DNA from: a virus
Reading direction: 5' to 3' (one strand)
Length of the DNA stretch: 64,000 bases
Virus record (IMG/VR): IMGVR_UViG_3300008117_000011
Coordinates: 1-64,000 of that record
Position numbers and translations under genes: made by a program. Shown here piece by piece: positions 29,730 to 52,619 of the stretch. Numbering within the stretch: the first letter of the stretch is position 1; every line of letters begins with the position of its first letter. Under the pieces are notes generated by a model. That model saw only the letters and a list, made by a program, of their open reading frames with translations. It made no database searches and had not been told where the DNA came from.

Positions 29730-29730
29730 A

Positions 29731-30414: not shown

Positions 30415-30418
30415 CTAT

Positions 30419-31522: not shown

Positions 31523-31532
31523 ACTATATAAT

Positions 31533-31571
31533 TTATTTTAATATTCTTCTTATGTTTTCTTGTAGGTTCAT
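31533..31571 (-). CDS. Orphan class C leader mini-ORF
   Basis: ATG at 31571 encodes MNLQENIRRILK and then TAA, exactly where genes such as 34142 continue with EET. It overlaps the stop of 31568 by 4 bp (ATGA) as a real gene start would. It is either a decapitated leader of the 30419 gene, a stop that is read through, or a decoy peptide. Confidence 0.6.
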   Translation of the reverse strand: MNLQENIRRILK

Positions 31572-31951: not shown

Positions 31952-31956
31952 ATGTT

Positions 31957-31964
31957 ATAAATAT
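31957..31964 (-). promoter_or_regulatory. RTATTTAT motif
   Basis: ATATTTAT on the minus strand, 5 bp before the ATG at 31951. Confidence 0.5.
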
Positions 31965-31995
31965 ATCATACCTAGATTACCTAAGTATAATATAC

Positions 31996-32295
31996 CTATT
32001 TGTTGTATATCTTCCCCCTAATACTTTTACCATATTTATTTTTTATATATTCATATAACCCGGAATGAATTTTTTTCATCTCCTCTGTTTTTGAAAGCCA
32101 GACAATGAATGTATCCATATTAAGACTTTCGGTCATAATGTGATTTGAAATATCTGTTATTAGTCTATGTTCCCACACATCCGGTTTAAGTGTTTTAGAA
32201 AGCATCTTTGACCCATTACAATTTAAATATAAATTAAATACCTCATCAATTAATGGTACTCTTCTGGCAATTATGTGTTTTACGTCTGGACCCAT
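31996..32295 (-). CDS. RRV family protein without leader
   Basis: The N-terminus MGPDVKHIIARRVPLIDEVFNLYLN resembles the body start of the RRRV family (29731, 35177) but has no class C leader before it. The remainder is helical with a basic end. It may be a non-packaged relative. Function unknown. Confidence 0.65.
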   Translation of the reverse strand: MGPDVKHIIARRVPLIDEVFNLYLNCNGSKMLSKTLKPDVWEHRLITDISNHIMTESLNMDTFIVWLSKTEEMKKIHSGLYEYIKNKYGKSIRGKIYNK

Positions 32296-32324
32296 TTTTT
32301 AAAGATAATAAAACTACCCATAAT

Positions 32325-32354
32325 AAAAAAGGGGACCTATATCTGGTCCCCTTT
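32325..32354. terminator. Intrinsic terminator
   Basis: GGGGACC pairs with GGTCCCC, preceded by AAAAAA. It ends the 32374 gene on the minus strand. Confidence 0.75.
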
Positions 32355-32373
32355 GTAATGTGTGATAAATATA

Positions 32374-32709
32374 TTAATCACCACAATGAAGGTGATAGTA
32401 TTGTTTTACTTTATCTCCGAATATATCTTTGATATAATTTTCCATTGCTTTGTATGCCTGTTCCCACTCCGGTGTTGCATAACTAATATGCTCCTCAAAA
32501 TATGCGTAGTACATATCTTCTATTACACCGGCTGTAAGATGTATTAAAACCTCATCCCCATTTCTATAGCGACAAATCTTCTCAGGACGATATGTTGTTG
32601 ACATATGGTAATATATCAAGTCTTCTAAATTAACAATTCTTCTTCTTATGTAGTGCGGAAGATTTGTTTCTTCTTTTAGAACTCTTCTTATGTTTTCTTG
32701 TTGGTTCAT
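32374..32709 (-). CDS. Class C leader, RRR family
   Basis: The leader is MNQQENIRRVLKEETN. The body begins LPHYIRRRIVNLEDLIYYHM and continues helical, ending KQYYHLHCGD. It shares its layout with 34654, 35177 and 35666. It overlaps the next gene's end by 1 bp. Function unknown. Confidence 0.8.
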   Translation of the reverse strand: MNQQENIRRVLKEETNLPHYIRRRIVNLEDLIYYHMSTTYRPEKICRYRNGDEVLIHLTAGVIEDMYYAYFEEHISYATPEWEQAYKAMENYIKDIFGDKVKQYYHLHCGD

Positions 32710-33572
32710 TATTTATTGTGATATATATTATATAACTCTTTAATTTCGTCCTCAAATACATTGGAAACTTCTGTAACAAATTCTATTTCTTCTTCCGATG
32801 GTAAATCTTCCCACCCAAGTTCATATTTATTCCAAATAATTGCTTCCACAGCCCTTAAAGTTAATTCATATTTAAATTGTTCATAACTTTCCGTTTCGTA
32901 ATATACTTGATCGGCATTTATTGGGAGCAGGTATTTAACCTCATCTAAATCAATTCTCCTATGAAAGAATTTTGATTCATTTAATATTCTTCTTATGGAT
33001 TCTTTTAATCCTAATAAATCATCCATACTAATTGTTGCACTATCATTACCTAGTTTATTAAGCATATCCGCAAATACATTAGGTTCTTCAGGTGTTTTTG
33101 GTTCTTCATATTTAGTTTTGTTACTTGGGTATTTTCCTGTTTTTTGATAAACCTCCATATCATCATCTTTTTGTTCGTCAGAACTAATTAATTTAAGAGC
33201 CGAAGGTGGTATTGGGTCTAAAGTTACATAGTATTTAAAATCATTCCCATCATCTTTATGTATTGGGTCATGAAACCATTGGTTATTTATTTTAGATAAA
33301 TCTATTTCCCATTCATCCCCACCAAAAAAACTATATTCAGGGTCTGAAGCAAAGACCATTGGTAATGGGTCTGAATCAGGAAAATTATGAGACATATAAT
33401 TTGAGGTGTATTTACCAACTTTGGGTAATAACCCGTGTTTTTGGATACTTTCTCTATTTTTATACGTTGTTCTATGTCGTAACACCCCTTTTGGATGTGC
33501 GGGAACTAAAACATCTCTTAATTGTTTAACCTCTTCCCTTAATATTCTTCTTATGGATTCTTTTAAGTTCAT
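32709..33572 (-). CDS. ART-like protein fused to an RRI family module
   Basis: The start at 33572 gives MNLKESIRRILREE; the more distal Met lies beyond the RTATTTAT motif. Residues 20-150 resemble an ADP-ribosyltransferase-like or KptA-like fold (VLRHRTTYKNRESIQKHGLLP, VFASDPEYSFFGGDEW, YYVTLDPIPPSALKLI). About residue 190 a second leader without Met (GLKESIRRILNES) precedes an RRIDLDEV body. The enzyme call is tentative; packaged ARTs such as T4 Alt modify host RNA polymerase. Confidence 0.7.
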   Translation of the reverse strand: MNLKESIRRILREEVKQLRDVLVPAHPKGVLRHRTTYKNRESIQKHGLLPKVGKYTSNYMSHNFPDSDPLPMVFASDPEYSFFGGDEWEIDLSKINNQWFHDPIHKDDGNDFKYYVTLDPIPPSALKLISSDEQKDDDMEVYQKTGKYPSNKTKYEEPKTPEEPNVFADMLNKLGNDSATISMDDLLGLKESIRRILNESKFFHRRIDLDEVKYLLPINADQVYYETESYEQFKYELTLRAVEAIIWNKYELGWEDLPSEEEIEFVTEVSNVFEDEIKELYNIYHNK

Positions 33573-33577
33573 ATGTA

Positions 33578-33585
33578 ATAAATAT
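33578..33585 (-). promoter_or_regulatory. RTATTTAT motif
   Basis: ATATTTAT on the minus strand, 5 bp before the ATG at 33572, and 11 bp from the divergent TATATTTG element. Confidence 0.5.
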
Positions 33586-33596
33586 ATTATTATTCT

Positions 33597-33604
33597 TATA
33601 TTTG
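33597..33604 (+). promoter_or_regulatory. Bacteroidota -7 element TATATTTG
   Basis: TATATTTG lies 8 bp before the ATG at 33613. Confidence 0.6.
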
Positions 33605-33612
33605 TGGATATT

Positions 33613-34155
33613 ATGGATTGTATCGTCACCGAAAATAAAAAATCAAACACCATTAAACTTATTCATAGTAAAATAAGTGAGTGGGGAGTAATTGGTGCTA
33701 GTCAAAGACTTGGTCTTTCTATTGATAAGTTTGTTGAACTTGGTGTTTTTAACTATCGTTTTGACACATTTCTTAATTACACAGATCTTCTTTATTTATC
33801 ACTATATGTTGTTGAAAAGAGTGGTCTGGTAAGTAAAGTTGATGAGACTTATGATTTTATGTGGTGGGGTGGGAATTCTAGGATGTATTTTGATTGTGCT
33901 GACTTAATTAATAATAATACTATGGTCGGATATGGAACACCATATTATGATGATATTCCTTATCTGGAGATTGAATCTGAAGTTTTTAATAAGTATTCTA
34001 TTGATTTTCGTAGAACTTATAAGTTAAAGTCCATTTCAGAATTTAAATCATTTAATGAATTTGAATCTTATATCTTAAATGATGTGTCAAAACTTGTATC
34101 AGACACAATCTTTGATGTTATTGAAAGAGTTGAAAGGGAAATTAAGGAAGGGTAA
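33613..34155 (+). CDS. GYATPY-family protein with weak leader
   Basis: The start at 33613 (MDCIVTENKKSNTIK) is supported by the promoter; VTE-N is a possible leader remnant. A helix (IHSKISEWGVIGASQRLGL) aligns with DEWGLWKTIDRLNLN in 36537, and VGYGTPYYDDIPYLEIE with the GYATPY motif. It uses a host-type promoter, unlike its leader-bearing paralogs. Its end overlaps 34142 by 14 bp. Function unknown. Confidence 0.78.
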   Translation: MDCIVTENKKSNTIKLIHSKISEWGVIGASQRLGLSIDKFVELGVFNYRFDTFLNYTDLLYLSLYVVEKSGLVSKVDETYDFMWWGGNSRMYFDCADLINNNTMVGYGTPYYDDIPYLEIESEVFNKYSIDFRRTYKLKSISEFKSFNEFESYILNDVSKLVSDTIFDVIERVEREIKEG

Positions 34156-34657
34156 CTGATGGTTCAAAACTTATAATATAATCATCTTCGTCTAATTTAA
34201 GTTGTCTTGCCAAATCATATGTAAAATCCTCAAATAGATATTTTAACTCCCATTTCATTGCTTTAAGATTAAAACCATCTTCACCATCTTTCAGATCTGC
34301 CAAATCATATGTTTTTTCCTCCCCATTCCTTAATGTAACTGTTACTGTTCCTTCTAATATCTTATAATAAAAGGTCATAGTCCCATACATATCAAGTTCT
34401 ACGTGTCTTATCTGGAATTTAAAATCGTATCCTTCTGTGTAGTCAGATTTAAAGTCATTTGATGAAAATATTTGATTCTGGAGATGTCGTCCAAGAAGTA
34501 TTGTTGGTCTTTCATTTAAAATCTTTCCCAGATTATTAATTCCATTTACTTTTTTTGCAACCGGAATGATACCATCCTTCTTAATCATCTTAAGTAGCCT
34601 GGACTGGATGGATGTTTCTTCTTTTAATATTCTTCTTATGTTTTCTTGTAGGTTCAT
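34142..34657 (-). CDS. Class C leader, NGI-NLxKxL family
   Basis: MNLQENIRRILKEETS leads into LLKMIKKDGIIPVAKKVNGINNLGKIL and then a beta-rich C-terminal domain containing GTVTVTLRNGEEKTYDL, which resembles GTVELIMTNDDRTHNL in 39709. It overlaps 34654 by 4 bp. Function unknown. Confidence 0.82.
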   Translation of the reverse strand: MNLQENIRRILKEETSIQSRLLKMIKKDGIIPVAKKVNGINNLGKILNERPTILLGRHLQNQIFSSNDFKSDYTEGYDFKFQIRHVELDMYGTMTFYYKILEGTVTVTLRNGEEKTYDLADLKDGEDGFNLKAMKWELKYLFEDFTYDLARQLKLDEDDYIISFEPSVTLP

Positions 34658-34983
34658 TTTTTTTTCATATTTCTATAATACATAATAAGAACTGGATCAT
34701 AAACTGATATCATATGTTTTACAAATGTATCTATATCTTCTTTTGGTAATTCTTTCTCAATCTCAATATTGTATTTGTTAAAAATATAGTTCTCTAGCGT
34801 TGCCTCAACTAATTTGTATTTGAACTCTTCTAGTGAGTTTGAATCGTAATACATATATGGAATTCCCTTTCTCATCATTTTCTCAAATTTATGATGATCA
34901 ACCCTTCTAGTGAAAAAATAAGGTAGTTTATTGTTTTCGGTTTCTTCTTTTAATATTTTTCTTATGGTTTCCTGTAAATTCAT
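34654..34983 (-). CDS. Class C leader, RRV family
   Basis: MNLQETIRKILKEET leads into YFFTRRVDHHKFEKMMRKGIPYMYYDSNSLEEFKYKL. The last part aligns with YYETESYEQFKYEL in the second module of 32709, so those two are closest relatives. Function unknown. Confidence 0.82.
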   Translation of the reverse strand: MNLQETIRKILKEETENNKLPYFFTRRVDHHKFEKMMRKGIPYMYYDSNSLEEFKYKLVEATLENYIFNKYNIEIEKELPKEDIDTFVKHMISVYDPVLIMYYRNMKKK

Positions 34984-34989
34984 ATAACA

Positions 34990-34997
34990 ATAAATAT
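34990..34997 (-). promoter_or_regulatory. RTATTTAT motif
   Basis: ATATTTAT on the minus strand, 6 bp before the ATG at 34983. Confidence 0.5.
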
Positions 34998-35073
34998 ATA
35001 ACCGGGAGGTTTAATTAATACTTTTTTATTGTCATAAATGGGATATATACTCGGATTTTTTCCGATTATATAT

Positions 35074-35139
35074 TTAAAATTCGTCATTAAGTCCGGCAAC
35101 TGTTATAAGTATAATCCCAACAATTAAAATTAGTGTCAT
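35074..35139 (-). CDS. Tiny membrane peptide
   Basis: A 21-residue frame (MTLILIVGIILITVAGLNDEF) is one hydrophobic helix with a short acidic end. It is followed by a CGGA/TCCG hairpin near 35050-35065. Weak evidence, but similar tiny TM genes occur at 38713 and 56044. Confidence 0.4.
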   Translation of the reverse strand: MTLILIVGIILITVAGLNDEF

Positions 35140-35176
35140 ATTATTTTTTACTGAGATATAAGTAAAAAATAATTAA

Positions 35177-35515
35177 TTATCTATAAATGTGTGTATACTC
35201 TTTTTTGATTTTATCATCAAAGTATTCCGAAAGGGCTGAAAAGGTCTCCTCATGCCATTCTTCATTTTCATCAAATGATGTATATAACTGCCAGTGAAGT
35301 CCATCAATTGTCATTGATATTACAACAAATTTATATCTATCTAAATCTGGTTTTGTTCCAGTTCTTGAGTATTCTCTTTGGAACATTTCTTTTGCTGAGT
35401 CTAATGACGATTCAAATTCTTCTTCAATATCCTCTTGTGAAACCCTACGTCTTATAAATGCCGGAAGTTTTGTTTCCTCTTTTAATATTCTTTTTATGGA
35501 TTCTTTTAAATTCAT
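35177..35515 (-). CDS. Class C leader, RRRV family
   Basis: The start at 35515 (MNLKESIKRILKEE) is fixed by the motif at 35522. The body AFIRRRVSQEDIEEEFESSLDSAKEMF aligns with RRRVPHEDLEREFEESLDMASNMF in 29731, and both continue with a VISMTIDGLHWQLY-type stretch. Close paralogs of unknown function. Confidence 0.83.
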   Translation of the reverse strand: MNLKESIKRILKEETKLPAFIRRRVSQEDIEEEFESSLDSAKEMFQREYSRTGTKPDLDRYKFVVISMTIDGLHWQLYTSFDENEEWHEETFSALSEYFDDKIKKEYTHIYR

Positions 35516-35521
35516 ATAATC

Positions 35522-35529
35522 ATAAATAC
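35522..35529 (-). promoter_or_regulatory. RTATTTAT motif
   Basis: GTATTTAT on the minus strand, 6 bp before the ATG at 35515. Confidence 0.5.
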
Positions 35530-35539
35530 TATTAGAAAT

Positions 35540-35568
35540 AAAAAACCCCATCTTTATCAGATGAGGTG
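35540..35568 (-). terminator. Probable terminator
   Basis: CCCCATC faces GATGAGG with one mismatch, and AAAAA on the left gives the minus-strand T run. It lies 98 bp beyond the stop of 35666. Confidence 0.55.
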
Positions 35569-35665
35569 ATAAATTATTTCATCGTTTAGATTGAGGTAAT
35601 AAACCCACACCGTCACACCCGGTATTTGGCGGTCAGATTATTTATTAGGAGTTCTGACATCCTTT

Positions 35666-36040
35666 TTACATATCAAAGTATTTATACATACTACAATCAG
35701 CATTATTGTAATATTCTTTTATTTCTTTATCAAACATTCTTTTAATATTATAAAGTAACTCACCATAAACTGCATATTCCTCGTCCTCATCTTTTCTATA
35801 GTACTCCGGAAATATCTCAAGTGTTCTTTCAGCAACTGCTCTTACAACAACACTCCAGTAAAGTTGTAAACCATACTCAGGATCCTTATCTTTATACTTA
35901 TCTTTCCAGTAACAAGGTTCCTGGTCCTCAAGTTCTTGTTTTAATATTTTATCTACACTATCAAATCTTCTAATTATGAACATTTCATAATCATTTCTTT
36001 CTTCTCTTAGAACTTTTCTTATGGATTCTCTTAAATTCAC
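35666..36040 (-). CDS. Class C leader, RRF family, GTG start
   Basis: The start codon is GTG within a GTGA overlap with the upstream stop, giving (M)NLRESIRKVLREER. The body MFIIRRFDSVDKILKQEL is a diverged RR family member with YGLQLYWSVVVRAVAERTLE. Function unknown. Confidence 0.8.
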   Translation of the reverse strand: MNLRESIRKVLREERNDYEMFIIRRFDSVDKILKQELEDQEPCYWKDKYKDKDPEYGLQLYWSVVVRAVAERTLEIFPEYYRKDEDEEYAVYGELLYNIKRMFDKEIKEYYNNADCSMYKYFDM

Positions 36041-39121: not shown

Positions 39122-39712
39122 TTACATAAGATTTTTAATTCTTTGGATTTCTTCTTTTACGATTTCGTGACCTCCACCATCTAACTTATCTGTAAAACCC
39201 ATAAGTTTGTCAAATGCCGGATGAGACTGAATTGGTTCTTTCTTTTTATCTTTCATTTGATTCCAGGTAGATGGTTTTACCTTCATATGGTTTTTAACAA
39301 GATATTTGATTTCATCAACATCTGTTCCTTCAAACGAACTAATCCACTCTTTGAATTGGTCAACATAGTCTGCTGACTTATCTTCGTGTCCATATGCTGT
39401 TGGTTGTCCGGTCTTTGGATTAATTGCATAAACATCCATCTTTCCAAGGTCGTGAAACAATGCTGCCATAATCATATTGGGGTCATCTGGGTAATGATGA
39501 TAAGCTCTTTTTAAAACAATAATGATATGTTTTAATGTGTTTCCTTCCGGATGCCATTCAGGGTTTTGTTTTGCACTCCATTGTTTAAATAATAATTCTT
39601 TTAATTCTGGTGTTAGATTTTTAATTAACTCTTGTGGTGTTGCGTGAAGTTTCTCTTCAGATATAATATTCATCATATTTTTAATTGTTTCTATATTTTC
39701 TCTTAAATTCAT
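39122..39712 (-). CDS. HD-domain hydrolase with leader
   Basis: The leader MNLRENIETIKNMMNIISEE ends ISE-E. The body has an HD-type phosphohydrolase pattern: HPEGNTLKHIIIVLKRA, AALFHDLGKMD (the HD pair), YGHEDKSADYV and LVKNHMKV. HD enzymes are metal-dependent and cleave phosphate bonds of nucleotides. The substrate cannot be told. If packaged, it would act immediately after DNA entry. It overlaps 39709 by 4 bp. Confidence 0.82.
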   Translation of the reverse strand: MNLRENIETIKNMMNIISEEKLHATPQELIKNLTPELKELLFKQWSAKQNPEWHPEGNTLKHIIIVLKRAYHHYPDDPNMIMAALFHDLGKMDVYAINPKTGQPTAYGHEDKSADYVDQFKEWISSFEGTDVDEIKYLVKNHMKVKPSTWNQMKDKKKEPIQSHPAFDKLMGFTDKLDGGGHEIVKEEIQRIKNLM

Positions 39713-41050: not shown

Positions 41051-41599
41051 ATGAAACCTAAATTTTATATATTGTTTTGTTATTTTACTATTGTGTTTGG
41101 TTTAGGTCTGTACGCATTTACTTTAAGTAAACAAGAAAGAGTACGTAAAATAGAATTGTCATATTGTTCAATGTATGATACAAGAACGCCAACATCTCTT
41201 AAAATGTACGCCTTAATTGAAAAGTACTCTTCAGAATATAATATACCAAAATATGTTGCTTATAACGTTGCGTACCGGGAAACAAGGTATATGGGTCCGT
41301 TCCATTGGAGATATAATCCCTATCAAACGTCTTGTGCCGGCGCTGAAGGGCCAATGCAGATTATGATTAAAACTTGTAATGGGTTAAATAAGTCAAGATA
41401 TTCAAAGAAGGAACTTAGAAGAAACCTTGAGTTAAATGTACGTACAAGTATGAAACTTCTTAATCGTTTACATAAAAAATATAAAAACTGGTCGGTTGTA
41501 TGTGGTTGGTACAATACCGGTAGACCTATTGTGAATGAGTATGGTAAGTACTGTGGTACAAATCTAAATTATAAAACCAAGTGGATTCAATTAGATTGA
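41051..41599 (+). CDS. Lytic transglycosylase (SLT domain)
   Basis: An N-terminal membrane anchor or signal (residues 6-25) is followed by an SLT fold: YIKVAY-type helix with the catalytic Glu in AYRETRY, GAEGPMQIM, ELNVRTSMKLLNRL and CGWYNTG. These enzymes cleave the glycan strands of peptidoglycan in the periplasm. Paired with 40719 under a host-type promoter. The end overlaps the convergent 41587 gene by 13 bp. Confidence 0.88.
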   Translation: MKPKFYILFCYFTIVFGLGLYAFTLSKQERVRKIELSYCSMYDTRTPTSLKMYALIEKYSSEYNIPKYVAYNVAYRETRYMGPFHWRYNPYQTSCAGAEGPMQIMIKTCNGLNKSRYSKKELRRNLELNVRTSMKLLNRLHKKYKNWSVVCGWYNTGRPIVNEYGKYCGTNLNYKTKWIQLD

Positions 41600-44094
41600 T
41601 TCCCTCTATATATAACAATGTTGGCCCTAGTAATTCTTTTATTGGGTCCGACATTGTATCCTTTTTCTTTAAACTCCTCATTAAAGAATTCTCTAAAAGC
41701 TTCCTTAAATATATCCCCAATCCATCCTCTTGTTCTAATTTTACTCTCAGCTAAATCCATTATTTTAAAATCATAAGCCAGAGAGTTATTTTTAACATCA
41801 TAATATCCTAAACAATTCTCACCCTTATTATCCCCAAAAATAAAAAGTTTTGTCTTTGAGTCATTATAAGAATAAGATTTAAGTTCTTTTTTTAAAATCT
41901 TCTTAATTGCATTTTTTAATATTCTTTCACTTTTTTCTTCATTCTCATTAAGACCTCTTTTCTTTCTTCCCTGACAATGCGCTCTTTGTGAAAACCCTTG
42001 TGGATTATTACAATCAATACTTCTTTTATATTTTTCAGACCACTTTTCATTAACCTCTTTTTGGTTTGCAATTTTTCTGATACTTACAATTTTAACACCC
42101 TCACCTTTATTTTTAAGTGTGACCTCGTTTTCATTTGGGTAAAGTAAATTGTTATATATTGTTTGGTCAATATCCACCAATTCTTTTGGCGCAAGAACTG
42201 TGATCATAAATGAATTATCTCCAATACCATCAGCAAATGAGTGACTATCTAACAAATCTTTTTTGTTTTTTGCATAGTGATCTCCGGGTTTATCCGTATC
42301 AATATCTTTTCTATCGTCCGCTTTTATTATTCTAAATAATTTAATTTCTTCAGGTAGATTCTTAATTGATTTAATAATATATTCAATTTCTTCTTTTGAT
42401 TCTTCTTCAGAATAGCCCATATGTTTTTTACCTTGGTCTATTAAACTTTTCAATTGTTTTTTTGATAAGTTGAGTGGATCTTTTACTTCGGAAATAACTT
42501 TTTTTTTTCTTAACGATTCTGTAATCGTATTTTGTTTTTCAATTTCATCATTTAATACTCTTACAAATTCTCTTTGTATAGCTTTTGTTAGTTCAACATA
42601 AGTTCTAATTTCAGGTTCCTTTTCTTCACCCTCGGATCCAATTGATTGATTTTCTTTTTCAATAATTTTCATCGCAGCTTCAATTTGTTTATCTGACAAC
42701 GAACCAAATTTATTGTATTTGTATTGTAAATCATTTACAAATTTATTTGTCCCTAAATAATTTAAAATTGGTTTTACCTCATCTGGGGTATTCATTTCAA
42801 ATTTTACTGGGTTATTACGATACAAATATGAAAGACCTGAAATGTTTGTAATACATTTGTGACCACCGGAGTTTGCTTGAACTATATCCCAACCATTAAT
42901 AGATATTTTATTTAAAAGTTCTTTTTGTTTATCAGATAATGTTCTATATAGTTTTGTTGAGATGTTCTCAATAATTCTTAAAATATTTTCGTTCACACCT
43001 TTAGTACTAAAAGATTCTCTATTTCCATAAAGGGCCACAAAATCTTTATAGGTAAAACCAACAGAAGAATAATCTGTTTTAAATTCTGACAATTTTTTAA
43101 TCTCACCAAATGTAATCTTCATATCTTTAAGTAAAGTTTCAAATTTACTTAATACAACATCTTTCATTTTACCTAAATCAACCCCTTTAAGTGCTCTATC
43201 TTCTTTGAATGGGTTACAAGAAGCTTGGACTAGACCTAGTGGCCAAGCAATAACAATAAAGTCAGCATCTGGATTATTTTTAAATGGTGTGTATCTATCA
43301 TATGACCCAGGTTCTCTCATATTACCACCACCATATTGCACGATGATATTACCAAGCCTTTTTACTTCACCACTTTGTTTTTGTTTTTCAATATATGCTT
43401 CTTGGTTTTTTGTAAGTTCATCAGTATTAGCATAACCCTTATCTTTAATTTGTTTTTTAATATTATTTAAAATACTTAAAAGTGATGGTTGTGCATTCAT
43501 TACAATGTAATCTAGAAACCCCGGTTTGTTTTTAAATGCTAAAAGCAATTTATTTGCAACAAGACCCATCTTAATTTTATTTGCTCTTGACGTATCACTT
43601 GGGTCAAACTTGAATAGGTAGTTCATAACCATTTCTGGTGTAATCTTATTTACAGCAAAGTTTGCTGAGTCAACAATTGATATTAACTGAACATCTTCAT
43701 CCGGAAATATTAATGATGGTGATACAACTTGTGAAATAGTTTCAACGTTTGATCTTGATGGTCTAAAGTTTGTTGATGTTCCAGCTTCAACACCGGCTTG
43801 TGTGTCGTGATGATCTGTATGGATTTCAAACATTGGTTTTCCGTGGGCAAAGTCAACAAGTACTGGCATAACTTCTCCGTGAGCATCCGCTTTCTTAATT
43901 GACCATTCTTTATCACCATATTGGATTAATTCTGCGTCAACAACTTTGATTCCGTATTTTTCTAAATAGTTTTTCATTGCTAGGGCTGTAGTAACCCCAT
44001 CAAGATCCATATGATAATATATCTTAGCTTTCTTATATCTTTGTGCTAATTTATTTATATTTCTGATTCCAGATTCTTTTAAAATAGATTTCAT
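41587..44094 (-). CDS. DHH-like phosphoesterase fused to ART-like domain, multi-leader
   Basis: The start MKSILKESGIR is leader-like (LKE-S). Residues 20-290 look like a DHH phosphoesterase: DLDG at 30-33, VDFA at 80-83, HTDHHD at 92-97. Residues 524-538 hold an internal leader (ITESLRKKKVISE). Residues 540-675 resemble an ADP-ribosyltransferase: LFRII, a SHSF segment and PNENEVTL with an ExE. Then SIDCNNPQGFSQRAHC, a Cys/His motif I recall from large-phage proteins, another basic helix, and a 100-residue C-terminal domain. Processing would release separate enzymes. T4 packages its ART Alt in a similar way. Confidence 0.75.
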   Translation of the reverse strand: MKSILKESGIRNINKLAQRYKKAKIYYHMDLDGVTTALAMKNYLEKYGIKVVDAELIQYGDKEWSIKKADAHGEVMPVLVDFAHGKPMFEIHTDHHDTQAGVEAGTSTNFRPSRSNVETISQVVSPSLIFPDEDVQLISIVDSANFAVNKITPEMVMNYLFKFDPSDTSRANKIKMGLVANKLLLAFKNKPGFLDYIVMNAQPSLLSILNNIKKQIKDKGYANTDELTKNQEAYIEKQKQSGEVKRLGNIIVQYGGGNMREPGSYDRYTPFKNNPDADFIVIAWPLGLVQASCNPFKEDRALKGVDLGKMKDVVLSKFETLLKDMKITFGEIKKLSEFKTDYSSVGFTYKDFVALYGNRESFSTKGVNENILRIIENISTKLYRTLSDKQKELLNKISINGWDIVQANSGGHKCITNISGLSYLYRNNPVKFEMNTPDEVKPILNYLGTNKFVNDLQYKYNKFGSLSDKQIEAAMKIIEKENQSIGSEGEEKEPEIRTYVELTKAIQREFVRVLNDEIEKQNTITESLRKKKVISEVKDPLNLSKKQLKSLIDQGKKHMGYSEEESKEEIEYIIKSIKNLPEEIKLFRIIKADDRKDIDTDKPGDHYAKNKKDLLDSHSFADGIGDNSFMITVLAPKELVDIDQTIYNNLLYPNENEVTLKNKGEGVKIVSIRKIANQKEVNEKWSEKYKRSIDCNNPQGFSQRAHCQGRKKRGLNENEEKSERILKNAIKKILKKELKSYSYNDSKTKLFIFGDNKGENCLGYYDVKNNSLAYDFKIMDLAESKIRTRGWIGDIFKEAFREFFNEEFKEKGYNVGPNKRITRANIVIYRGNQSN

Positions 44095-44140: not shown

Positions 44141-44464
44141 ATGATTGATTATAAAACGGAAAAACTACTTTTAAAATTTTTAAATCATAGTAGTGGTGGA
44201 AATATTGTGAGTATTCTTGGTTACACCCAAAAGCTTGAGTCTAGTGTATTAAACCTAGATGTATTTGAATTCCAAACAGCAAAAACATTTGTACCAAAAG
44301 TTGATAAAGTATTACAAATTAGATGTAATTGTAGGGATAATTTACATTTTAATGGAATGAATAATCTTTCACAAAGAACCTATCTAACTTTTAAAGATGT
44401 CTTAAAGGATTTTAGTAAAATAGAAATAGAATATAACTACTCTATGTATTGTTGTCGTGATTAA
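44141..44464 (+). CDS. Unknown 107-aa protein
   Basis: Starts MIDYKTEKLLLKFLNHSSGG; a TTG two codons earlier lies in the promoter. It has Cys residues CNC and CC and a beta-rich look. It converges on 44461 with a 4 bp overlap. Function unknown. Confidence 0.65.
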   Translation: MIDYKTEKLLLKFLNHSSGGNIVSILGYTQKLESSVLNLDVFEFQTAKTFVPKVDKVLQIRCNCRDNLHFNGMNNLSQRTYLTFKDVLKDFSKIEIEYNYSMYCCRD

Positions 44465-44658
44465 GCTTTAAGATACTCCTTCCAGAACTTTAATAGTTCT
44501 TTATCGTTATATCTTTGTTCATCACTATCCCAACCACACATATGACAAAGGTTTGGGTGTTTGTCATCCTTTTCTTTTTTCCAGGAATGACCACACTTAC
44601 AACTTATTTTTTCTTCAAATAGTAATCTACTTTGTCTTTCTGTTATTATTATTTTCAT
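44461..44658 (-). CDS. Class B leader plus zinc ribbon
   Basis: The leader MKIIITERQSRLLFEE is joined to a zinc ribbon (CKCGHSWKKEKDDKHPNLCHMCGWD) and a short helix. At 65 residues it is one of the smallest cargo candidates. The same ribbon style recurs in large-phage proteins as far as I recall. Role unknown. Confidence 0.8.
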   Translation of the reverse strand: MKIIITERQSRLLFEEKISCKCGHSWKKEKDDKHPNLCHMCGWDSDEQRYNDKELLKFWKEYLKA

Positions 44659-45048: not shown

Positions 45049-45917
45049 TTAAACTTAATTTCTTCTGGTTTAATTGGCCCTGACTTAAATATAACTTTAT
45101 CATATGTAAATCCTTTTTTTGATTTGATTCCGGTTGTTATTTTCAAATCAGAATCATTTTCAAATATGTAATAAATACCTTTTGTTTTGTTTACAAAAAT
45201 TAAATAATCAACATCGTCTAAATTATATCCAGAAGCTGGATACTTTTGTGTTAAAACATCAAAAGATGTCTTGTTACCATTTAAAAACAAAAGTTGTTTA
45301 ACCTGAAATGTTGCTTTTGTATCTCCTTTTGTTAATATAAAATCAACACCTTGTTTTGCATCACTTTTAGATCCTGGACAAAAATTAATATTACCGGGTA
45401 ATTTAAGTGCGTTGATTAAAGTATCAAATACCGATTTTTCTGATTCAAAACCAAATCTGATTTTTTTTAAATTTTCAATTGCAAGGTTTTCAATCTTATC
45501 TGTATGTAGATTGTTCTTTATGTATTCTTTTACGTATTCAATAAAATTATCAACTGTTTCATCAACTGTTGTTTCAGCTCTAAATGATTTTAAAAGAGAA
45601 TCAAGTACTACACCACTTGTTATAAAGAAATTTATAACAGACCAGTTTGAGTTTGGGACATTCATTTTTTGACTATAATCAGTAAATGTATGTACACCAA
45701 TAACTCCATTAAGTGTATAACAATCAATTGCCGGATTATCAGCGGTTCCCCAATTTCCAAGTGGTATAAAAATTTCCTTAAGTACTCCTAAGAACTTGGA
45801 TTTAAAATCTTTGTTATTTTTTAATGAATCTGAAGTTAATACATTTCTAATTAACTCTTCTTCTTTTATAATTCCCATCAATTTTTTTATTCTACTATTT
45901 TCAACTATACTAGTCAT
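45045..45917 (-). CDS. PD-(D/E)XK-like nuclease with leader
   Basis: The start at 45917 (MTSIVENSRIKKLMGIIKEEE) gives a leader with IKE-E. Residues 150-210 carry a restriction-endonuclease-like pattern: GFESEKSVFDTLI, then PGSKSDAKQGVDFILT and ATFQVKQLLFL, that is E ... D ... QxK. Packaged nucleases can attack host DNA. The fold call is by motif and could be a non-catalytic relative. Confidence 0.65.
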   Translation of the reverse strand: MTSIVENSRIKKLMGIIKEEELIRNVLTSDSLKNNKDFKSKFLGVLKEIFIPLGNWGTADNPAIDCYTLNGVIGVHTFTDYSQKMNVPNSNWSVINFFITSGVVLDSLLKSFRAETTVDETVDNFIEYVKEYIKNNLHTDKIENLAIENLKKIRFGFESEKSVFDTLINALKLPGNINFCPGSKSDAKQGVDFILTKGDTKATFQVKQLLFLNGNKTSFDVLTQKYPASGYNLDDVDYLIFVNKTKGIYYIFENDSDLKITTGIKSKKGFTYDKVIFKSGPIKPEEIKFK

Positions 45918-46611
45918 ATTTTTCCATATATTTACTATCAATTATGATTGTCTTTGCTTTTTTAGTTACAAGATTTATTTGATCAAGAACAATTCTGTTG
46001 TTACCATCTCTATTTAAAACTAAAGTCCCAGAACCACCCGGTTCGTTATGAATATTTAAATCAATAACTTCCTTTGCCACATTTAATACCCAATTATGAA
46101 ATGATGTTTCACCAAAAAACATTTCATAATATGATCTAACATTCATAATAGATTTGTTTGTTGATGTACTAACCTCATCTACTATAAAATCACCATACCC
46201 ATAAGTAAAATCAATAAGTAATGTATCATAACTTTTTATATAATTAAATAATCGTTCAGATGTGTTATCCGTGTATTGAAATTCTGTTGTCTTTTCTTTA
46301 TTTTCTCGTGCGTCATATTTTGCAACTAAAATTATTTGTCTTTTTTGTGGGTCTATTGTCACATCACACCACCAGGTATTATCCCAATATTCTACTTCCT
46401 CGGTAAACATTTCACTTCCGTGATCTTCTACTAATTTTATTATAAAATCTTCAAAGTAATCTAAAATAGGAACTTTAAATCCTTTTTCAGACCAAAATGC
46501 TGATGGAACATATTCAATTCTTTCAGAATACATATCAATATTAACCCCAATAGGTCCAATTGGATTAAGATATGCCATAAGTGCTTTAAATGTATTTTTA
46601 TAATTCATCAT
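45910..46611 (-). CDS. Tandem paralog array, member 1
   Basis: The N-terminus NTFKALMAYLNPIG is a variant of the shared KxLKxxxAYFRGF start. The body has a WWCDVTIDPQKRQI strand, a DFTYGYGDF motif, and ends with a strand-rich tail. Last of six genes chained by 1-14 bp overlaps. Function unknown. Confidence 0.8.
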   Translation of the reverse strand: MMNYKNTFKALMAYLNPIGPIGVNIDMYSERIEYVPSAFWSEKGFKVPILDYFEDFIIKLVEDHGSEMFTEEVEYWDNTWWCDVTIDPQKRQIILVAKYDARENKEKTTEFQYTDNTSERLFNYIKSYDTLLIDFTYGYGDFIVDEVSTSTNKSIMNVRSYYEMFFGETSFHNWVLNVAKEVIDLNIHNEPGGSGTLVLNRDGNNRIVLDQINLVTKKAKTIIIDSKYMEKYD

Positions 46612-47308
46612 TAAAATTATCTAGTGTTATTTGAATATTCATATCTGTAGGTTGATATTCTTCTTCAAATTCATATCCATCAATTAATACTTTACCATTT
46701 GCGTAAACAATAATTCTACCTTTAAAACCATTTTCACCATTCCAATAAAGATTTACATTACGTTTCATAATATCGTTTACAATGACCCAGTATCTATCTT
46801 CATCTTCACTATCAATTCTTGCGTCTATATCGTTTACATAAGCTTCAAATACTTCACCGTCATCCCATCTTCCATAAAAATGTAATTCAAGTTTTTTAAT
46901 AATATCATCTTCAAATATGTCATAAATAATTTCTTTTGTTCTTGTAGTAATATCATCAAGATTTACCATTTCCTTTTTTTTAATTGATATTTCTTGCTTA
47001 CACTCACTTGTAAAAACAATTCTATTTTCAAAAGGATATATTAAAGCGTATAAATACCAAAGTTCACTATATTCATAATCGTTATATTTTCTAAATTCTG
47101 GTGTAATTTTATTTAGTATTTCACTAAAAATTGAGATAATTGTGTCCGGAGGAGTTACAAGTGATTTTTGTCCGTCACTTTTTCTAAAGTAAAAATGCTT
47201 GTTCCAGTCTGGTTCAATTGTGTTTACATCAAATGGAATATCTGTGTCTACAGTTTTTACTTTTAGACCTTTAAAATACGAAAAAAACATTTTTAATTTA
47301 TTCTTCAT
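46598..47308 (-). CDS. Tandem paralog array, member 2
   Basis: MKNKLKMFFSYFKGLK start; then NDYEYSELWYLYALIYPFENRIVFTSECK, which matches NDYNEDDWWSLEVSIYPFENEIHFTSECK in member 5; then a KLELHFYGRWDDGEVFE strand. Function unknown. Confidence 0.83.
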   Translation of the reverse strand: MKNKLKMFFSYFKGLKVKTVDTDIPFDVNTIEPDWNKHFYFRKSDGQKSLVTPPDTIISIFSEILNKITPEFRKYNDYEYSELWYLYALIYPFENRIVFTSECKQEISIKKKEMVNLDDITTRTKEIIYDIFEDDIIKKLELHFYGRWDDGEVFEAYVNDIDARIDSEDEDRYWVIVNDIMKRNVNLYWNGENGFKGRIIVYANGKVLIDGYEFEEEYQPTDMNIQITLDNFNDEL

Positions 47309-47993
47309 CTTCTTGTTTTAAATTATCTAGTGTAACTACAATGTCTAAACTTTCGGTAACATCATCATTTGTATTCCATTCGTGCATAACTTCAATATGG
47401 TTTCTTGTAACTTCAATTGTTCCTTGGGATCCTTCATTTATCTCCCAACCACCAAAATCTTCAAGTAACTGATAACAAATATTTTCAATTTCTCTAGTTA
47501 TTGTTCCAGATTTTTTTCTTGAAGAATAACTATCGTGAACTTGTCCACTATCGCCACCACCATCGTAAGTTATTTCAAGTGAATCAATTCCTTCTTTATC
47601 TAAAAATTTATCAAATTCTTCAAAATACTGAGAAACACTTTCACCATCTTCATCCCTATCATAATATATTCCAGAATCTTCTGTTCCATACTGAGTAAAA
47701 TCTGTACTTTCAAAAACTAATCTATCTGGATATATTGTCCCATCAACAGTAAAGTAATCACTTCCATCACCATAACTTCCAAGCCCACCATCATATAAAT
47801 CTTCAGCGTACAATTCAGCGATATCATAAAATATTTGCTCCATATTTGATGACATCTGAAATCCTGGGTTTTTTGCACAAGTAAAATCTATATAATCAAT
47901 TGAATCTCCATCATTATAAAATTGTATTGTAAAATCAATGTTACAATTTAGACCTCTAACATACCCTAAAAGGGCTTTAAATTTTTTATTCAT
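47298..47993 (-). CDS. Tandem paralog array, member 3
   Basis: MNKKFKALLGYVRGLN start; SLEITYDGGGDSGQVHD and FGGWEINEGSQGTIEV match member 6 (QFSGYGDSGEIHE, FGGWEIDDGSRGEFEI). Acidic overall. Function unknown. Confidence 0.83.
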   Translation of the reverse strand: MNKKFKALLGYVRGLNCNIDFTIQFYNDGDSIDYIDFTCAKNPGFQMSSNMEQIFYDIAELYAEDLYDGGLGSYGDGSDYFTVDGTIYPDRLVFESTDFTQYGTEDSGIYYDRDEDGESVSQYFEEFDKFLDKEGIDSLEITYDGGGDSGQVHDSYSSRKKSGTITREIENICYQLLEDFGGWEINEGSQGTIEVTRNHIEVMHEWNTNDDVTESLDIVVTLDNLKQEDEE

Positions 47994-48681
47994 AATCTTC
48001 TATATTATTTGGTGTTAATTCTATTCTCATATTACTCGGAAGTAATCTTTCTTGATGGTGTTTGTAGCTTACTTCTATTTTATTCTTTTCTATTCTCACG
48101 CTACCACTAACTCCGTCAATTCCCCATTCAATAGATTGATCTACAACATCCATAATGTTTTGAGCTATATCATAATATTTCTCTTCAATATTTGAGTCTA
48201 ATTCATAAATGTTTTTTTCATCACCATTTATATTCAAATTTGTAACTTCACCTTCATCTACACCCATCCAAAAATCAATTTCAATAAAATTATTATCGTC
48301 TTTTATATGTTTTTCTAATTCAACAATAGCCCAATCCTGCAATCTTTTTAAATATGTTTTTTTTTCTTTTTTTTCTGTAAATTTTTGATAGTCTTTGGCG
48401 GTAACAATTATTTGATTATCAAATGGTCTAATAGTAATACTTAAAATCCAATAATCAGAATACTCCCTTGAAACATTGTCTAAAATTTCTCTTTTTAATT
48501 TTCTACTAAAAAGTGATTTTATTGCATTGTTAATTGTTAAATTCGTATTCGTTTCTTTACCATCAATCATACAAAGTCCGTCATCATTAAATTCCCAATC
48601 AACCATATCAAATTCTATATCGGCTCGTGGTTTATTAAAACCCCTAAAATAGGCTAATATCATTTTTAATTTATTTTTCAT
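47986..48681 (-). CDS. Tandem paralog array, member 4
   Basis: The start MKNKLKMILAYFRGF at 48681 is preferred over two upstream Met codons that lie in the tail of member 5. The body contains YWILSITIRPFDNQIIVTAK and EIDFWMGVDEGEVTNL. Function unknown. Confidence 0.82.
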   Translation of the reverse strand: MKNKLKMILAYFRGFNKPRADIEFDMVDWEFNDDGLCMIDGKETNTNLTINNAIKSLFSRKLKREILDNVSREYSDYWILSITIRPFDNQIIVTAKDYQKFTEKKEKKTYLKRLQDWAIVELEKHIKDDNNFIEIDFWMGVDEGEVTNLNINGDEKNIYELDSNIEEKYYDIAQNIMDVVDQSIEWGIDGVSGSVRIEKNKIEVSYKHHQERLLPSNMRIELTPNNIEDYE

Positions 48682-49366
48682 CCGTATCATCAAAAAAATC
48701 TGGCGTTATTGTAATGTCCATATCTGTATTGCCCCATTCAACAAGTCTGTTCTCAAGGTCAAGGAAAATATCATCACCCCATATTGTGATATCTCCAGTA
48801 AAACCACCATCATCGGTCCAGTATTTTCCATAATTTTTTGACATTAACTCGTATGTTACATCGTGAAATAACATATCAAGTTCATTTGTTGTTTTAATAA
48901 ACTTGTCATCAAAAAGAATATTAAAAATTTCAACATCCCAAATACCTCTAAAATCAAACTGAATTTTTGTTAAATTATTTTCTTCTTCAATTTCGGTTAT
49001 CTTATCCTGGAATTCTTCAGATAAATCAGAAAACTCCATTTGTAGTTGTTCTGGAACTGAATTTGCGTATTTGCACTCACTTGTAAAATGTATCTCATTT
49101 TCAAATGGATAAATACTAACTTCTAATGACCACCAATCATCTTCGTTATAATCATTATAATGATGAAATGTTGGCATAAGTTTTTTAATAACCTCTTCTA
49201 TAATATCACGAATTGGTTTTGCCGGTTCTATAAACTTTCTAGTACCACCTAAAGATATATCACTAAACTCTTCAATTGTGTTATAACCAAAAGTTACGTT
49301 GAAAAACAACTCCTCTTGTTTAAACCCTCTAAAATATGCAAAAAGTGCTTTTAATTTATTTTTCAT
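48671..49366 (-). CDS. Tandem paralog array, member 5
   Basis: MKNKLKALFAYFRGFK start; WWSLEVSIYPFENEIHFTSECK; FDFRGIWDVEIFNI; ending DITITPDFFDDTDEK. The C-terminal IT(L/P)DNxxD pattern is shared across the array. Function unknown. Confidence 0.83.
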   Translation of the reverse strand: MKNKLKALFAYFRGFKQEELFFNVTFGYNTIEEFSDISLGGTRKFIEPAKPIRDIIEEVIKKLMPTFHHYNDYNEDDWWSLEVSIYPFENEIHFTSECKYANSVPEQLQMEFSDLSEEFQDKITEIEEENNLTKIQFDFRGIWDVEIFNILFDDKFIKTTNELDMLFHDVTYELMSKNYGKYWTDDGGFTGDITIWGDDIFLDLENRLVEWGNTDMDITITPDFFDDTDEK

Positions 49367-50031
49367 TCGTTTAACATATCTTCGGTTATTTCAATTGGGT
49401 CCTGACAATCGTTCCAGACTCTCTGCTGCCAAGTTTGTTCTATTGTAATCATTTTTGTTGTTCCATAATACTCAGCAATTTCAAACTCACCTCTGGATCC
49501 GTCATCTATTTCCCATCCTCCAAATGCGGCTTCTAATCTGTCATAAAGATAATTTAATAGTTTTTCATATTCACCACCCCATCTTACAATTTCGGTTTGA
49601 CCATTAATTTCAATATCCTCGTGTATTTCACCGGAATCACCATAACCACTAAATTGTCCTTTTACAGATTCAATACCTTTTTCTTTAAGAAATTCTAAAA
49701 CTTCTTCATCTCTTATGTCATCAGAATATGTGTCAGGTTGTTCGTCAAAATTTTCACATCTAACACTATAAAACATTTTATTTTCAGATGGTTTTAAATC
49801 TAAAGTAATACTTTTATATTCTGTTTCACTATAAAGTTGTTCTATATCATATTCTTCAGCTAAAAATATTGCAATACCAGTTATTATATCTCTAATATTT
49901 CCTGGTACTGACATATTACTACTAAAGCTGTACCAGTCAACTTCTCCATCATAATATGCAAAAGAAAATGATATATTATCTTTCTTTAATGACTTAAAAA
50001 AAGACATTAGAACTTTAAATTTTTTTTTCAT
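49363..50031 (-). CDS. Tandem paralog array, member 6 (first in operon)
   Basis: MKKKFKVLMSFFKSLK start behind an RTATTTAT motif; body with QFSGYGDSGEIHE and FGGWEIDDGSRGEFEI. It lacks the ExS-type leader, but the conserved basic amphipathic N-terminus could act as a different targeting tag. Function unknown. Confidence 0.83.
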   Translation of the reverse strand: MKKKFKVLMSFFKSLKKDNISFSFAYYDGEVDWYSFSSNMSVPGNIRDIITGIAIFLAEEYDIEQLYSETEYKSITLDLKPSENKMFYSVRCENFDEQPDTYSDDIRDEEVLEFLKEKGIESVKGQFSGYGDSGEIHEDIEINGQTEIVRWGGEYEKLLNYLYDRLEAAFGGWEIDDGSRGEFEIAEYYGTTKMITIEQTWQQRVWNDCQDPIEITEDMLNE

Positions 50032-50399: not shown

Positions 50400-50445
50400 A
50401 ATGTGTCTTTTTGATAAGTATAACTTTAATAATCATATTTTTGAA

Positions 50446-50453
50446 GTATTTAT
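50446..50453 (+). promoter_or_regulatory. RTATTTAT motif
   Basis: GTATTTAT lies 5 bp before the ATG at 50459 and fixes that start. Confidence 0.5.
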
Positions 50454-50458
50454 TAGGT

Positions 50459-51079
50459 ATGAAAGATTTGATTCGTCAGGTTTTAAGGGAAACTATACAA
50501 AGTAAGTACAGAAGATTAAGTCCAGAACTTAATACTGTAATTATGAAAAAAATTACTTCTTTATTTAAAAATTTCAAAGTTGACTATAAAGACCCAAAAA
50601 AAACTTATGGAAATATTGATGTAGAATTTTGTTTAAATGGTAAAAAGGTTGTCAATTTTATTGGTGGTGATGAACCAGGGTGGGATGATTATGATACACC
50701 AGAAGGAACAAAAATTGACCCATATGGTCGTGTTACGTTTGATAAAAAGATTGTAAATCAATTAACTTCAACATTTAATATCAGAAAATCATTGGCCTTA
50801 CATCTTTTAACAGAATTTTTTGAGGATAATTATCTAAATACAATATCACAAAAATATGGAATTCAATTTAACGATTTAGATGATGGTCAAGAGTACGATT
50901 ATAAAAATGGTTTATGTCAATCTGAAATGGTAAAAAGTGTTCCAAATTATAATAGAGAACAAATGCTTGACTATATAGAATCAAGTGGAAGAGGAAGGAG
51001 ATATTGGGAAGAAATGGATGATGAGGAATTACAGAATTCTTTTGAGCAAATCTGGGTTATAATAAATTTTCGTGAGTAA
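50459..51079 (+). CDS. Class C-like leader protein
   Basis: The start at 50459 gives MKDLIRQVLRETIQSK, a leader of the LIRxxLRE form. The body is beta-rich then helical (VEFCLNGKKVVNFIGGDEPGWDDYD). It is chained to the next two genes by 1 bp overlaps. Function unknown. Confidence 0.8.
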   Translation: MKDLIRQVLRETIQSKYRRLSPELNTVIMKKITSLFKNFKVDYKDPKKTYGNIDVEFCLNGKKVVNFIGGDEPGWDDYDTPEGTKIDPYGRVTFDKKIVNQLTSTFNIRKSLALHLLTEFFEDNYLNTISQKYGIQFNDLDDGQEYDYKNGLCQSEMVKSVPNYNREQMLDYIESSGRGRRYWEEMDDEELQNSFEQIWVIINFRE

Positions 51080-52062
51080 TGAAAAAATTAATTAGACATA
51101 TATTACAAGAGGAAACCTCAATGTTTTTACCAGATAGATTTATTTACAATTCTATGATGGAAAGTAATGACGATATCATTAAGGCTTACCCTAAAAAGAA
51201 AAAACTAGCAATAAAATTTTTAGAGTCTTTTAAACTTGAGCACTGGGAAAATAAAAGATATCAAATGGAATACCTTGCGACACCAAAAGGTACTATTATT
51301 TTTATGTTAACGGATGCTGAGTTGTCTATTCAATCTGAAATTTATGATGTTTTAACACGGATTATGGATAATCCGGAATCTCTAACCTATTTCATAAATG
51401 ATTATGTTAGAAATAGAGGACTTTCTTTAGATTATATCTATGTAACTAGATCCGGTGGTATTGGTGAAATTGAGGATGATGATGACCGGGTAATTCAAAA
51501 CATTCAAGAATCAACTAGTAAAAACCCACTCAAACAATATTTTTTTAAAATCTGGGACAAAGAAAAAAAAGAAGGTAAAATTCCAATGATTGGTAATTTA
51601 GAAAGACTTGGTCTTATTGAAAAGCAAAATGAGATTATTCAATACTTTGCTGAGTATATGGGTTGGGACACAAACAGTAAATTGGAAGCAATTAAAATGT
51701 ATCTTTTAAACCAAACATTCACAGAAGATTATATTACTGGTATGAAAGATATCCCAGAAGGAAAAATAACAATTAAATTTACAGATATTCAAGTTGGTGA
51801 AAAGCCTAGTACAGATACGTATTTTGATGAAAGTTACATTGCTGGCGAATTTGTTGTTTTAGATGGTTCATTTTTAGAACCTGAAGTTGGTGAAACATTA
51901 CACTTTTCAAGTGGTGATATACCAATGTCTGATTTTCTTGAATACCACGATTTTAAAGATGCTGTTAGTGAGATTGTAGAAGGTTTTGTTGATAATATTT
52001 TAAAAACATTTGGTTATAAAAAGGGTGCCGTTAGTTATCCTTACGTTGATTTTAACTGGTAA
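51079..52062 (+). CDS. Two-module leader protein
   Basis: The leader is MKKLIRHILQEETS. Residues 1-145 form one module; around residue 150 VIQNIQESTSK looks like a second, diverged leader. The second half (YFFKIWDKEKKEGKIPMIG ... VLDGSFLEPEVG) aligns with the whole of 52062. Function unknown. Confidence 0.8.
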   Translation: MKKLIRHILQEETSMFLPDRFIYNSMMESNDDIIKAYPKKKKLAIKFLESFKLEHWENKRYQMEYLATPKGTIIFMLTDAELSIQSEIYDVLTRIMDNPESLTYFINDYVRNRGLSLDYIYVTRSGGIGEIEDDDDRVIQNIQESTSKNPLKQYFFKIWDKEKKEGKIPMIGNLERLGLIEKQNEIIQYFAEYMGWDTNSKLEAIKMYLLNQTFTEDYITGMKDIPEGKITIKFTDIQVGEKPSTDTYFDESYIAGEFVVLDGSFLEPEVGETLHFSSGDIPMSDFLEYHDFKDAVSEIVEGFVDNILKTFGYKKGAVSYPYVDFNW

Positions 52063-52619
52063 TGAAAGAGTTAATTAGAAATATATTAAGAGAAGATAAC
52101 AAAACTGAAATGGTGTTAAACTATTTTAGGAAGTTGTGGCAAAAGGATGTTGACTCTGGTAATGTTCCTACAATACCACATATTGATATTAAAAGAAAAA
52201 AATTAGATTCGTTCTATGATGATATAAAAGTTGCATATTTTGATTTTGTTGGTGGAAAAGAAAAAGCTTTTGAGTACTTTGAAAAATCAATTGAAAATAA
52301 AGTATTAACTGATAGGGACTTATCTAAGGTGCTTGATTTTCGTGGTCCGGATACTTTTACTTTTGAACTTTATGGTGTAACATCTGTTGATTACAAAGAT
52401 GGTGAAGTTGATGAAATTGAGTTTGTTTTTGATGTGTTAGATGGTAACTTTGAAACTGATGGTGGCGTTTTTGTTACCTGGTCTGAATTAATGCCTGAAG
52501 AAATGGATGATTTATACCACGATGTGTCAAATTGGATTAGGGGATTAATTGAGGACTACGTTGACACAATGGCGGAAAGTTATGGTTTTAAATTTGCATC
52601 ATATGGTTCCTGGGGATAA
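52062..52619 (+). CDS. Class C-like leader protein, paralog of 51079 C-half
   Basis: MKELIRNILREDNK leads into YFRKLWQKDVDSGNVPTIP and, near the end, FDVLDGNFETDGGVFVTWSELMP. The arrangement suggests that 51079 arose by fusion with a copy of this gene. Function unknown. Confidence 0.8.
   Translation: MKELIRNILREDNKTEMVLNYFRKLWQKDVDSGNVPTIPHIDIKRKKLDSFYDDIKVAYFDFVGGKEKAFEYFEKSIENKVLTDRDLSKVLDFRGPDTFTFELYGVTSVDYKDGEVDEIEFVFDVLDGNFETDGGVFVTWSELMPEEMDDLYHDVSNWIRGLIEDYVDTMAESYGFKFASYGSWG

Follow-up and report, generated by a model that had tools for sequence, protein, structure and literature searches.

A predicted capsid-cargo precursor that joins a DHH-DHHA1 phosphoesterase to exchangeable tails in a T4-superfamily phage

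Introduction

Why does a single phage open reading frame (ORF) join a DHH-type phosphoesterase to an ADP-ribosyltransferase (ART)-like domain and two further parts, and does the resulting chain stay in one piece? The ORF in question encodes 835 residues and lies, complete, at 41587..44094 on the minus strand of a 64,000-nucleotide stretch of DNA (hereafter the window), which is the start of the 223,671-bp IMG/VR virus record IMGVR_UViG_3300008117_000011 (G000). A sequence-only reading of the window had proposed that separate enzymes are released from this chain at internal leaders. What a phage carries in its capsid is its first means of acting against the host; the cargo of T4 contains an ART as well as an anti-restriction inhibitor. 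Our analysis suggests that the protein is probably a capsid-cargo precursor of a T4-superfamily phage, cut by a protease into separate enzymes.

Results

A conserved core carries exchangeable tails

Relatives of the 835-residue protein, sharing residues 1-526, are encoded at 54 loci in IMG/VR, and its core is 57-70% identical across 30 of these, so the reading frame that had been noticed in the window does not arise by chance. The protein contains four parts: a DHH-DHHA1 core, an ART-like module, a 34-residue Cys/His mini-domain and a 118-residue C-terminal domain. Among the relatives, the core is followed by no tail, by a SET domain (PF00856, E 9e-8), by a GNAT domain (PF00583, E 2e-13), by an unnamed domain that we label DNRG after its DNRGQWDHP motif, by the mini-domain, or by the mini-domain and the C-terminal module. 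The combination of ART-like module, mini-domain and C-terminal module was found in the window protein alone among the relatives compared. Tail-less proteins account for 8 of the 34 non-redundant relatives and tail-bearing ones for 26. At least two disparate enzymatic domains are thus found per chain, DHH and ART-like in the window protein and DHH and SET or GNAT in relatives. There are at least 11 changes of tail type on the core tree, and near-identical cores carry differing tails (none in locus L011 and SET in L013; DNRG in L033 and SET in L035). The tail-less relatives end directly ahead of the position where an [I/L]xE tripeptide marks the join in the others. Judged from these alignments, the core is a conserved socket whose exchangeable tails are swapped at a predicted protease site.

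Protease-type sites are found at the leader and at the joins

The chain begins with a capsid-targeting-like leader, MKSILKE↓ (residues 1-7, 44074..44094, minus strand; ↓ marks a predicted cut), which would be removed at LKE7↓SGIR. A short N-terminal propeptide ending in L/I-x-E is a criterion for T4-type capsid cargo, and LKE7↓S has this form. E7, S8 and G9 are invariant in 31 aligned cores behind leaders of differing type and length, some of them double, including MRKLIKE, MKYIIKE, MKIIITETQYKRLINE, MKNLIRKFLKEHTLILE and MERIIKKILNEVILLNE. Core relatives in 635- and 642-kb phages carry the leaders MISKYNQFINE↓ and MLRKYGQFINE↓.

Tripeptides of the same kind are found inside the chain. The linker between the core and the ART-like module, ITESLRKKKVISE (residues 524-536, 42487..42525, minus strand), contains two of them, ITE526↓SLRKKKVISE536↓V. 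An [I/L]xE tripeptide lies within a few residues of the core end in 26/26 tail-bearing relatives, with 19 distinct join strings, compared with a background of 12.6% of equal-size sequence windows elsewhere in the tail-bearing proteins. Since the 26 tailed proteins are related, they are not 26 independent trials, and the number of tail changes, 11, is the sounder measure. The joins have I or L at P3, E at P1 and S, N or E at P1', with P2 unconstrained; the sites were aligned on the tripeptide, so the constancy of P3 and P1 is partly built in. The T4 protease gp21 cuts after L/I-X-E (PMC9026906). Further predicted cut sites in the window protein, absent from the sequence-only reading, are LKE7↓S, VNE683↓K and LNE717↓N. 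A polyprotein of 762 residues (L187) has four such sites at successive joins: ILTE↓S, SLNE↓S, GLNE↓S and IITE↓Q. Separately, a protein of ~490 residues encoded beside a DHH gene of a 735-kb phage (L200, 959-2455) contains several repeats ending in RWYKKGKLNE↓S and may be another protease-site polyprotein.

The modules also occur as stand-alone genes with leaders of their own. In L031, DNRG has its own gene, with the leader MKQLIRKILKE↓E. GNAT likewise forms a gene of its own in L042/L045, where it overlaps the core gene and has the leader MNLYENILRINQLIKE↓N, but is fused in L030. A stand-alone ART relative (L114) begins with MREIIKKVLKE↓F, and most ART-like relatives are single proteins of ~142 residues with starts like MKLLQLLTE↓K or MKILPVLSE↓I. 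The cleanest pair consists of L180, which stands alone and begins with MKELIRKILKE↓ESYIRLSEDNTD, and the fused L184, which reads ...SLDE↓SYIRLSEDNTD at the join; the fused copy keeps the cleavage tripeptide, and the remainder of the leader is gone. The claim of an internal leader in the window protein has strong comparative support, but "protease site" is the better term, since fused copies retain [I/L]xE and usually lose the other leader residues.

These arrangements also bear on the main rival explanation, that packaging and injection leave the fused chain whole, as a T4-superfamily polyvalent protein, that only the N-terminal leader is cut, and that the tripeptides at the joins are fusion relics or exposed linkers. 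As modules exist as neighbouring leader-bearing genes, each fusion would bring in [I/L]xE passively, and polyvalent proteins already described may work uncut (PMC5512222). However, the fused copy in the L180/L184 pair loses its leader yet retains the tripeptide, P3 and P1 stay constant over 19 joins while P2 and most flanks vary (partly by construction), and the tripeptide is present in every tailed copy. We consider injection of an intact chain unlikely, though it deserves serious attention.

In the mechanism that we propose, the leader would target the chain to the prohead core, like the T4 capsid targeting sequence of Alt and the internal proteins, and a gp21-type protease, which cuts after L/I-x-E, would remove it during head maturation. 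The same protease would cut between the modules at ITE526↓, ISE536↓, VNE683↓ and LNE717↓. The predicted products are a ~59-kDa DHH-DHHA1 phosphoesterase, a ~17-kDa ART-like enzyme, the 34-residue basic mini-domain and a ~14-kDa domain, and one targeting event would supply all of them in equal copy number. Packaged alongside the DNA, the pieces would be ejected into the host cell, where the DHH enzyme would most likely hydrolyse small (signalling) nucleotides and the ART would modify a host protein, as Alt does; the basic mini-domain may bind DNA inside the head. Lineages swap the tail that follows the DHH core, with the predicted protease site as the point of exchange. We lean towards a general form of this mechanism, in which the prohead protease of large T4-superfamily phages acts as a general polyprotein processor: unrelated takeover enzymes would share one leader, be cut in the prohead and be injected separately in a fixed ratio, and modules would be exchanged at L/I-x-E as polymorphic toxins exchange their C-termini.

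The core is a DHH-DHHA1 phosphoesterase

The core module spans residues 8-526 (42517..44073, minus strand) and is assigned by PF01368, by invariant residues and by structural matches. The three DHH motifs that the sequence-only reading had named are present: DLDG (motif I, residues 30-33, 43996..44007), VDFAHG (residues 80-85) and HTDHHD (motif III, residues 92-97, 43804..43821). They are joined by motif IV, IVDSANF (residues 140-146), and by the DHHA1-type glycine-His motif NSGGHK (residues 408-413, 42856..42873), with all coordinates on the minus strand. D30, D32, D81, D94-H95-H96, D142 and N408-S-G-G-H412 are invariant in the 31 aligned cores, and by sequence they make up the complete set of DHH and DHHA1 residues. 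All 31 core members match PF01368, with a best E of 1.8e-5; the window protein itself has an E of 7e-4, under the gathering score.

The AlphaFold2 model of the core is modest (predicted local distance difference test score, pLDDT, 69) and poor at residues 83-123, the stretch containing the DHH motif. Structural comparison with RecJ/NrnA, which had been suggested as a check, places the core among DHH phosphoesterases. Its neighbours are PggH (Z 12.7), PAP phosphatase (10.8), NrN (10.1) and RecJ (9.4, compared through the shared DHH-DHHA1 part only), and Foldseek matches at E<=0.001 are RecJ/Cdc45/phosphodiesterase (PDE)-type or unnamed proteins. A RecJ-like nuclease of single-stranded DNA was rejected as the first choice; such matches exist, but the smaller PDE/PAP/NrN enzymes score higher. 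With PggH, PAP phosphatase and NrN as the top structural matches, a small-nucleotide phosphodiesterase is likelier. A role against nucleotide signalling has been proposed for DHH enzymes of jumbo phages (PMC7824862), and the CRISPR messenger SAM-AMP is degraded by NrN (PMC10600005). On these grounds we favour hydrolysis of small nucleotides over single-stranded DNA exonuclease activity as the probable role of the core.

A pattern scan of 84,980 cellular genomes gave 73 pattern matches, none of them a relative of the core, and a PDB profile search with the core gave nothing significant. The core shares motifs I-IV, the DHHA1 motif and the fold with PggH, PAP phosphatase, NrN and RecJ, and differs from them in being phage-only in these scans and in having a helical insert and a C-terminal extension.

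The tail contains an ART-like module, a basic mini-domain and a C-terminal module

The ART-like module spans residues 537-683 (42046..42486, minus strand). Four residues, R588, H606, E655 and E657, are invariant in an alignment of 42 sequences (numbering +522). The ART superfamily is recognized by a catalytic Arg on the first strand together with (E/Q)xE, and R588, E655 and E657 provide these residues. ARTs of the R-S-E class (cholera-toxin type) have a conserved S in motif 2 (STS). This serine is not conserved over the 42 sequences, and H606 is invariant instead; of the R...S...ExE pattern proposed earlier, the R and ExE parts are borne out, and its S, in "SHSF", lacks conservation. The AlphaFold2 model of the module is good (pLDDT 84, predicted template modelling score, pTM, 0.74). 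The suggested structural comparison with ARTs lands mostly among them, with weak scores: the PDB neighbours include TreX/TreTu, the enterotoxin and cholera A chains, PltA, Tpt1, ParT and PARPs. R588 is level with R7 of cholera A1 (CTA) and E655/E657 with E110/E112, by range arithmetic from alignment end-points and not at residue level. A PDB profile search with the module gave nothing significant.

The module alone gave no match in the phage collection, and a single-sequence scan for relatives returned the window's own contig only. A handle search and a 3-sequence alignment opened the family, of which the first members outside the window came from two other phages; at least 89 loci encode a relative, and 80 were kept. 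In our reading, the module represents a divergent and new family of ART-like proteins that lacks the STS serine. Two other matches were rejected. A match to the uracil-DNA glycosylase inhibitor P56 in the ART region (E 0.01) was under the cut-off, occurred in one member and covered the wrong part, and a cyanophage match to residues 640-722, considered as an ART, covers only the mini-domain. In addition, a 411-residue protein is encoded at 8860-10095 (minus strand) of the window, and relatives of it are fused to an ART-like module in L179, L181, L184, L191, L192 and L195.

The 34-residue mini-domain, KWSEKYKRSIDCNNPQGFSQRAHCQGRKKRGLNE (residues 684-717, 41944..42045, minus strand), lies between VNE683↓ and LNE717↓ and is basic, with an isoelectric point (pI) of 10. 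The Cys/His motif that had been noted ahead of another domain is present in it (SIDCNNPQGFSQRAHC, residues 692-707). Cyanophages and many viral contigs encode its unit, KWSEKYKRSIDCNNPxGFSQxAHCQGRKK, which usually sits directly behind [I/V/L/M]NE and occupies either the N-terminal end (MRAKEFVNE↓KWSEKY) or the C-terminal end. This position behind NE sites at either end favours a cleaved-off basic cargo peptide, and the charge suggests that the peptide may bind DNA. Cyanophage gp114-like proteins (S-CAM9) have the KWSEKYK...GFSQ..HC mini-domain in common with the window protein, set among further basic Cys modules, and differ in lacking DHH and ART domains; in S-CAM9 gp114 (L105, 3959-6058), the KWSEKYK unit is one of a row of small basic Cys modules. 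A 65-residue Cys4 zinc-ribbon-like mini-protein with the leader MKIIITE is encoded at 44461-44658 (minus strand) of the window, and in L086, L087, L088 and L090 the same mini-protein and the KWSEKYK mini-domain form one chain, linked by MNE↓, VNE↓ or INE↓.

The C-terminal module (residues 718-835, 41590..41943, minus strand; pI 9.4) has no assigned fold. A single-sequence scan gave the window's own contig only, and further search added one relative (L019, 40% identity), in which the module likewise stands behind the mini-domain.

A second rival explanation accepts that the precursor is cut and takes the tail pieces as scaffold-like or DNA-condensing filler, with the ART-like domain being a catalytically dead ART fold. 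The shortness and basic charge of the mini-domain, the weak similarity to ARTs and the cutting of T4 core proteins to fragments (PMC9026906) are consistent with this. R588, H606 and ExE are nevertheless invariant in 42 diverse relatives, and other tails are recognizable enzymes (SET, GNAT), which makes the filler explanation improbable.

Genomic setting and points against a cleaved precursor

Several observations weigh against the cleaved cargo precursor. A family search found no portal, terminase, gp23 or prohead protease in G000. For the ART-like module, the fold scores are weak (Foldseek E >=0.24, best Z 6.4), and no ART family hidden Markov model in Pfam or PHROGs matches it. The DNRG protein of L040 and the ART relatives L132, L160, L176 and L182 have no clear leader. 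At the mini-domain join, V occupies P3 in the window protein, and some relatives have T there. The core interior shows no depletion of [I/L]xE such as a protease footprint would leave (0.91 of expectation), and joins of the [I/L]xE kind could be relics of fusions between leader-bearing genes.

G000 contains T4-type tail sheath, tube and baseplate genes. Its relative G001 (322 kb), which encodes the same core, has a gp21-type protease (Peptidase_S77, 8e-25), gp23 (1e-64), portal and terminase, and SFLINE↓A, a site of the same kind as those at the joins, is found at the expected propeptide end of its gp23. Since the four head genes are missing from G000 and all four are present in G001, G000 is most likely a fragment without its head block. 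The 835-residue protein has no match to a peptidase domain of its own in Pfam or PHROGs.

At least 20 more ORFs in the window have strict leader motifs, for example within 29259-36040, 13004-24834 and 50411-52619; the motifs include MNLQESIRRILRE, MKIIITESQ, LTESDLxRIVKRVIxE and MKELIRNILRE. None was found in the remaining 160 kb of the record, a comparison biased by patterns taken from the window. As strict leader motifs are concentrated there, the window resembles a region of cargo genes. The protein being an early-expressed cytoplasmic multidomain enzyme with MKxLIKE as an ordinary N-terminus would suit the head genes missing from G000, the non-ejected T4 ARTs ModA and ModB and the few leaderless ART relatives, but is very improbable given E7, S8 and G9 invariant behind differing leaders, including double ones and the unrelated FINE↓ of huge phages, and the many leader-bearing genes in the window.

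Discussion

Comparison with known systems

The predicted precursor shares with T4 Alt and the internal proteins a short leader ending in L/I-x-E, a predicted ART-like cargo and, in the relative G001, T4-type head genes. It differs in that one chain holds several unrelated modules with predicted internal cuts and the DHH enzyme first, and its ART-like module has no detected sequence family, with H606 replacing the conserved S. With polyvalent proteins it shares disparate enzymatic domains (including ART and GNAT) per chain and predicted injection (PMC5512222). Polyvalent proteins have their own peptidase domains where processing has been proposed, no DHH domain is listed among them, and T4-type ARTs are stated not to occur in genuine ones (PMC5512222); the window protein lacks a peptidase domain, and its predicted release would use the prohead protease. 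By analogy, the precursor would work like a combination of T4 Alt-like or internal-protein-like cargo and a polyvalent protein. Ejection proteins of the large phages PhiKZ and SPN3US are also processed after x-x-E, by the prohead proteases of these phages, and in the available portion of that source the cuts remove propeptides and release of several enzymes from one precursor is not reported (PMC10052503). In the open literature, a scope that leaves out most subscription-journal papers and all bioRxiv preprints, we found no description of such leaders, of cargo polyproteins or of enzyme release by a prohead protease.

If true, the release of several enzymes from one precursor would extend the role of the prohead protease beyond head maturation, and the precursor would offer a directly testable route to co-packaging enzymes. 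The sequence rule of module, L/I-x-E and module may allow unknown proteins of big phages to be read as separate cargo sets. The large, unnamed and mostly leader-bearing ART-like family (at least 89 loci) and the phage-only DHH family are candidates for counter-defence.

Neighbouring genes

On the plus strand, an SLT lytic transglycosylase gene (41051-41599; PF01464, 3.8e-13) is convergent with the precursor gene and overlaps it by 13 bases. An HD-domain protein (39122-39712, minus strand; PF01966, 4e-7) has the leader-like start MNLRENIETIKNMMNIISEE. Six tandem genes at 45910-50031 (minus strand) encode proteins of ~230 residues with alike starts (MKNKLKALFAYFRGF or similar) and are probably paralogs.
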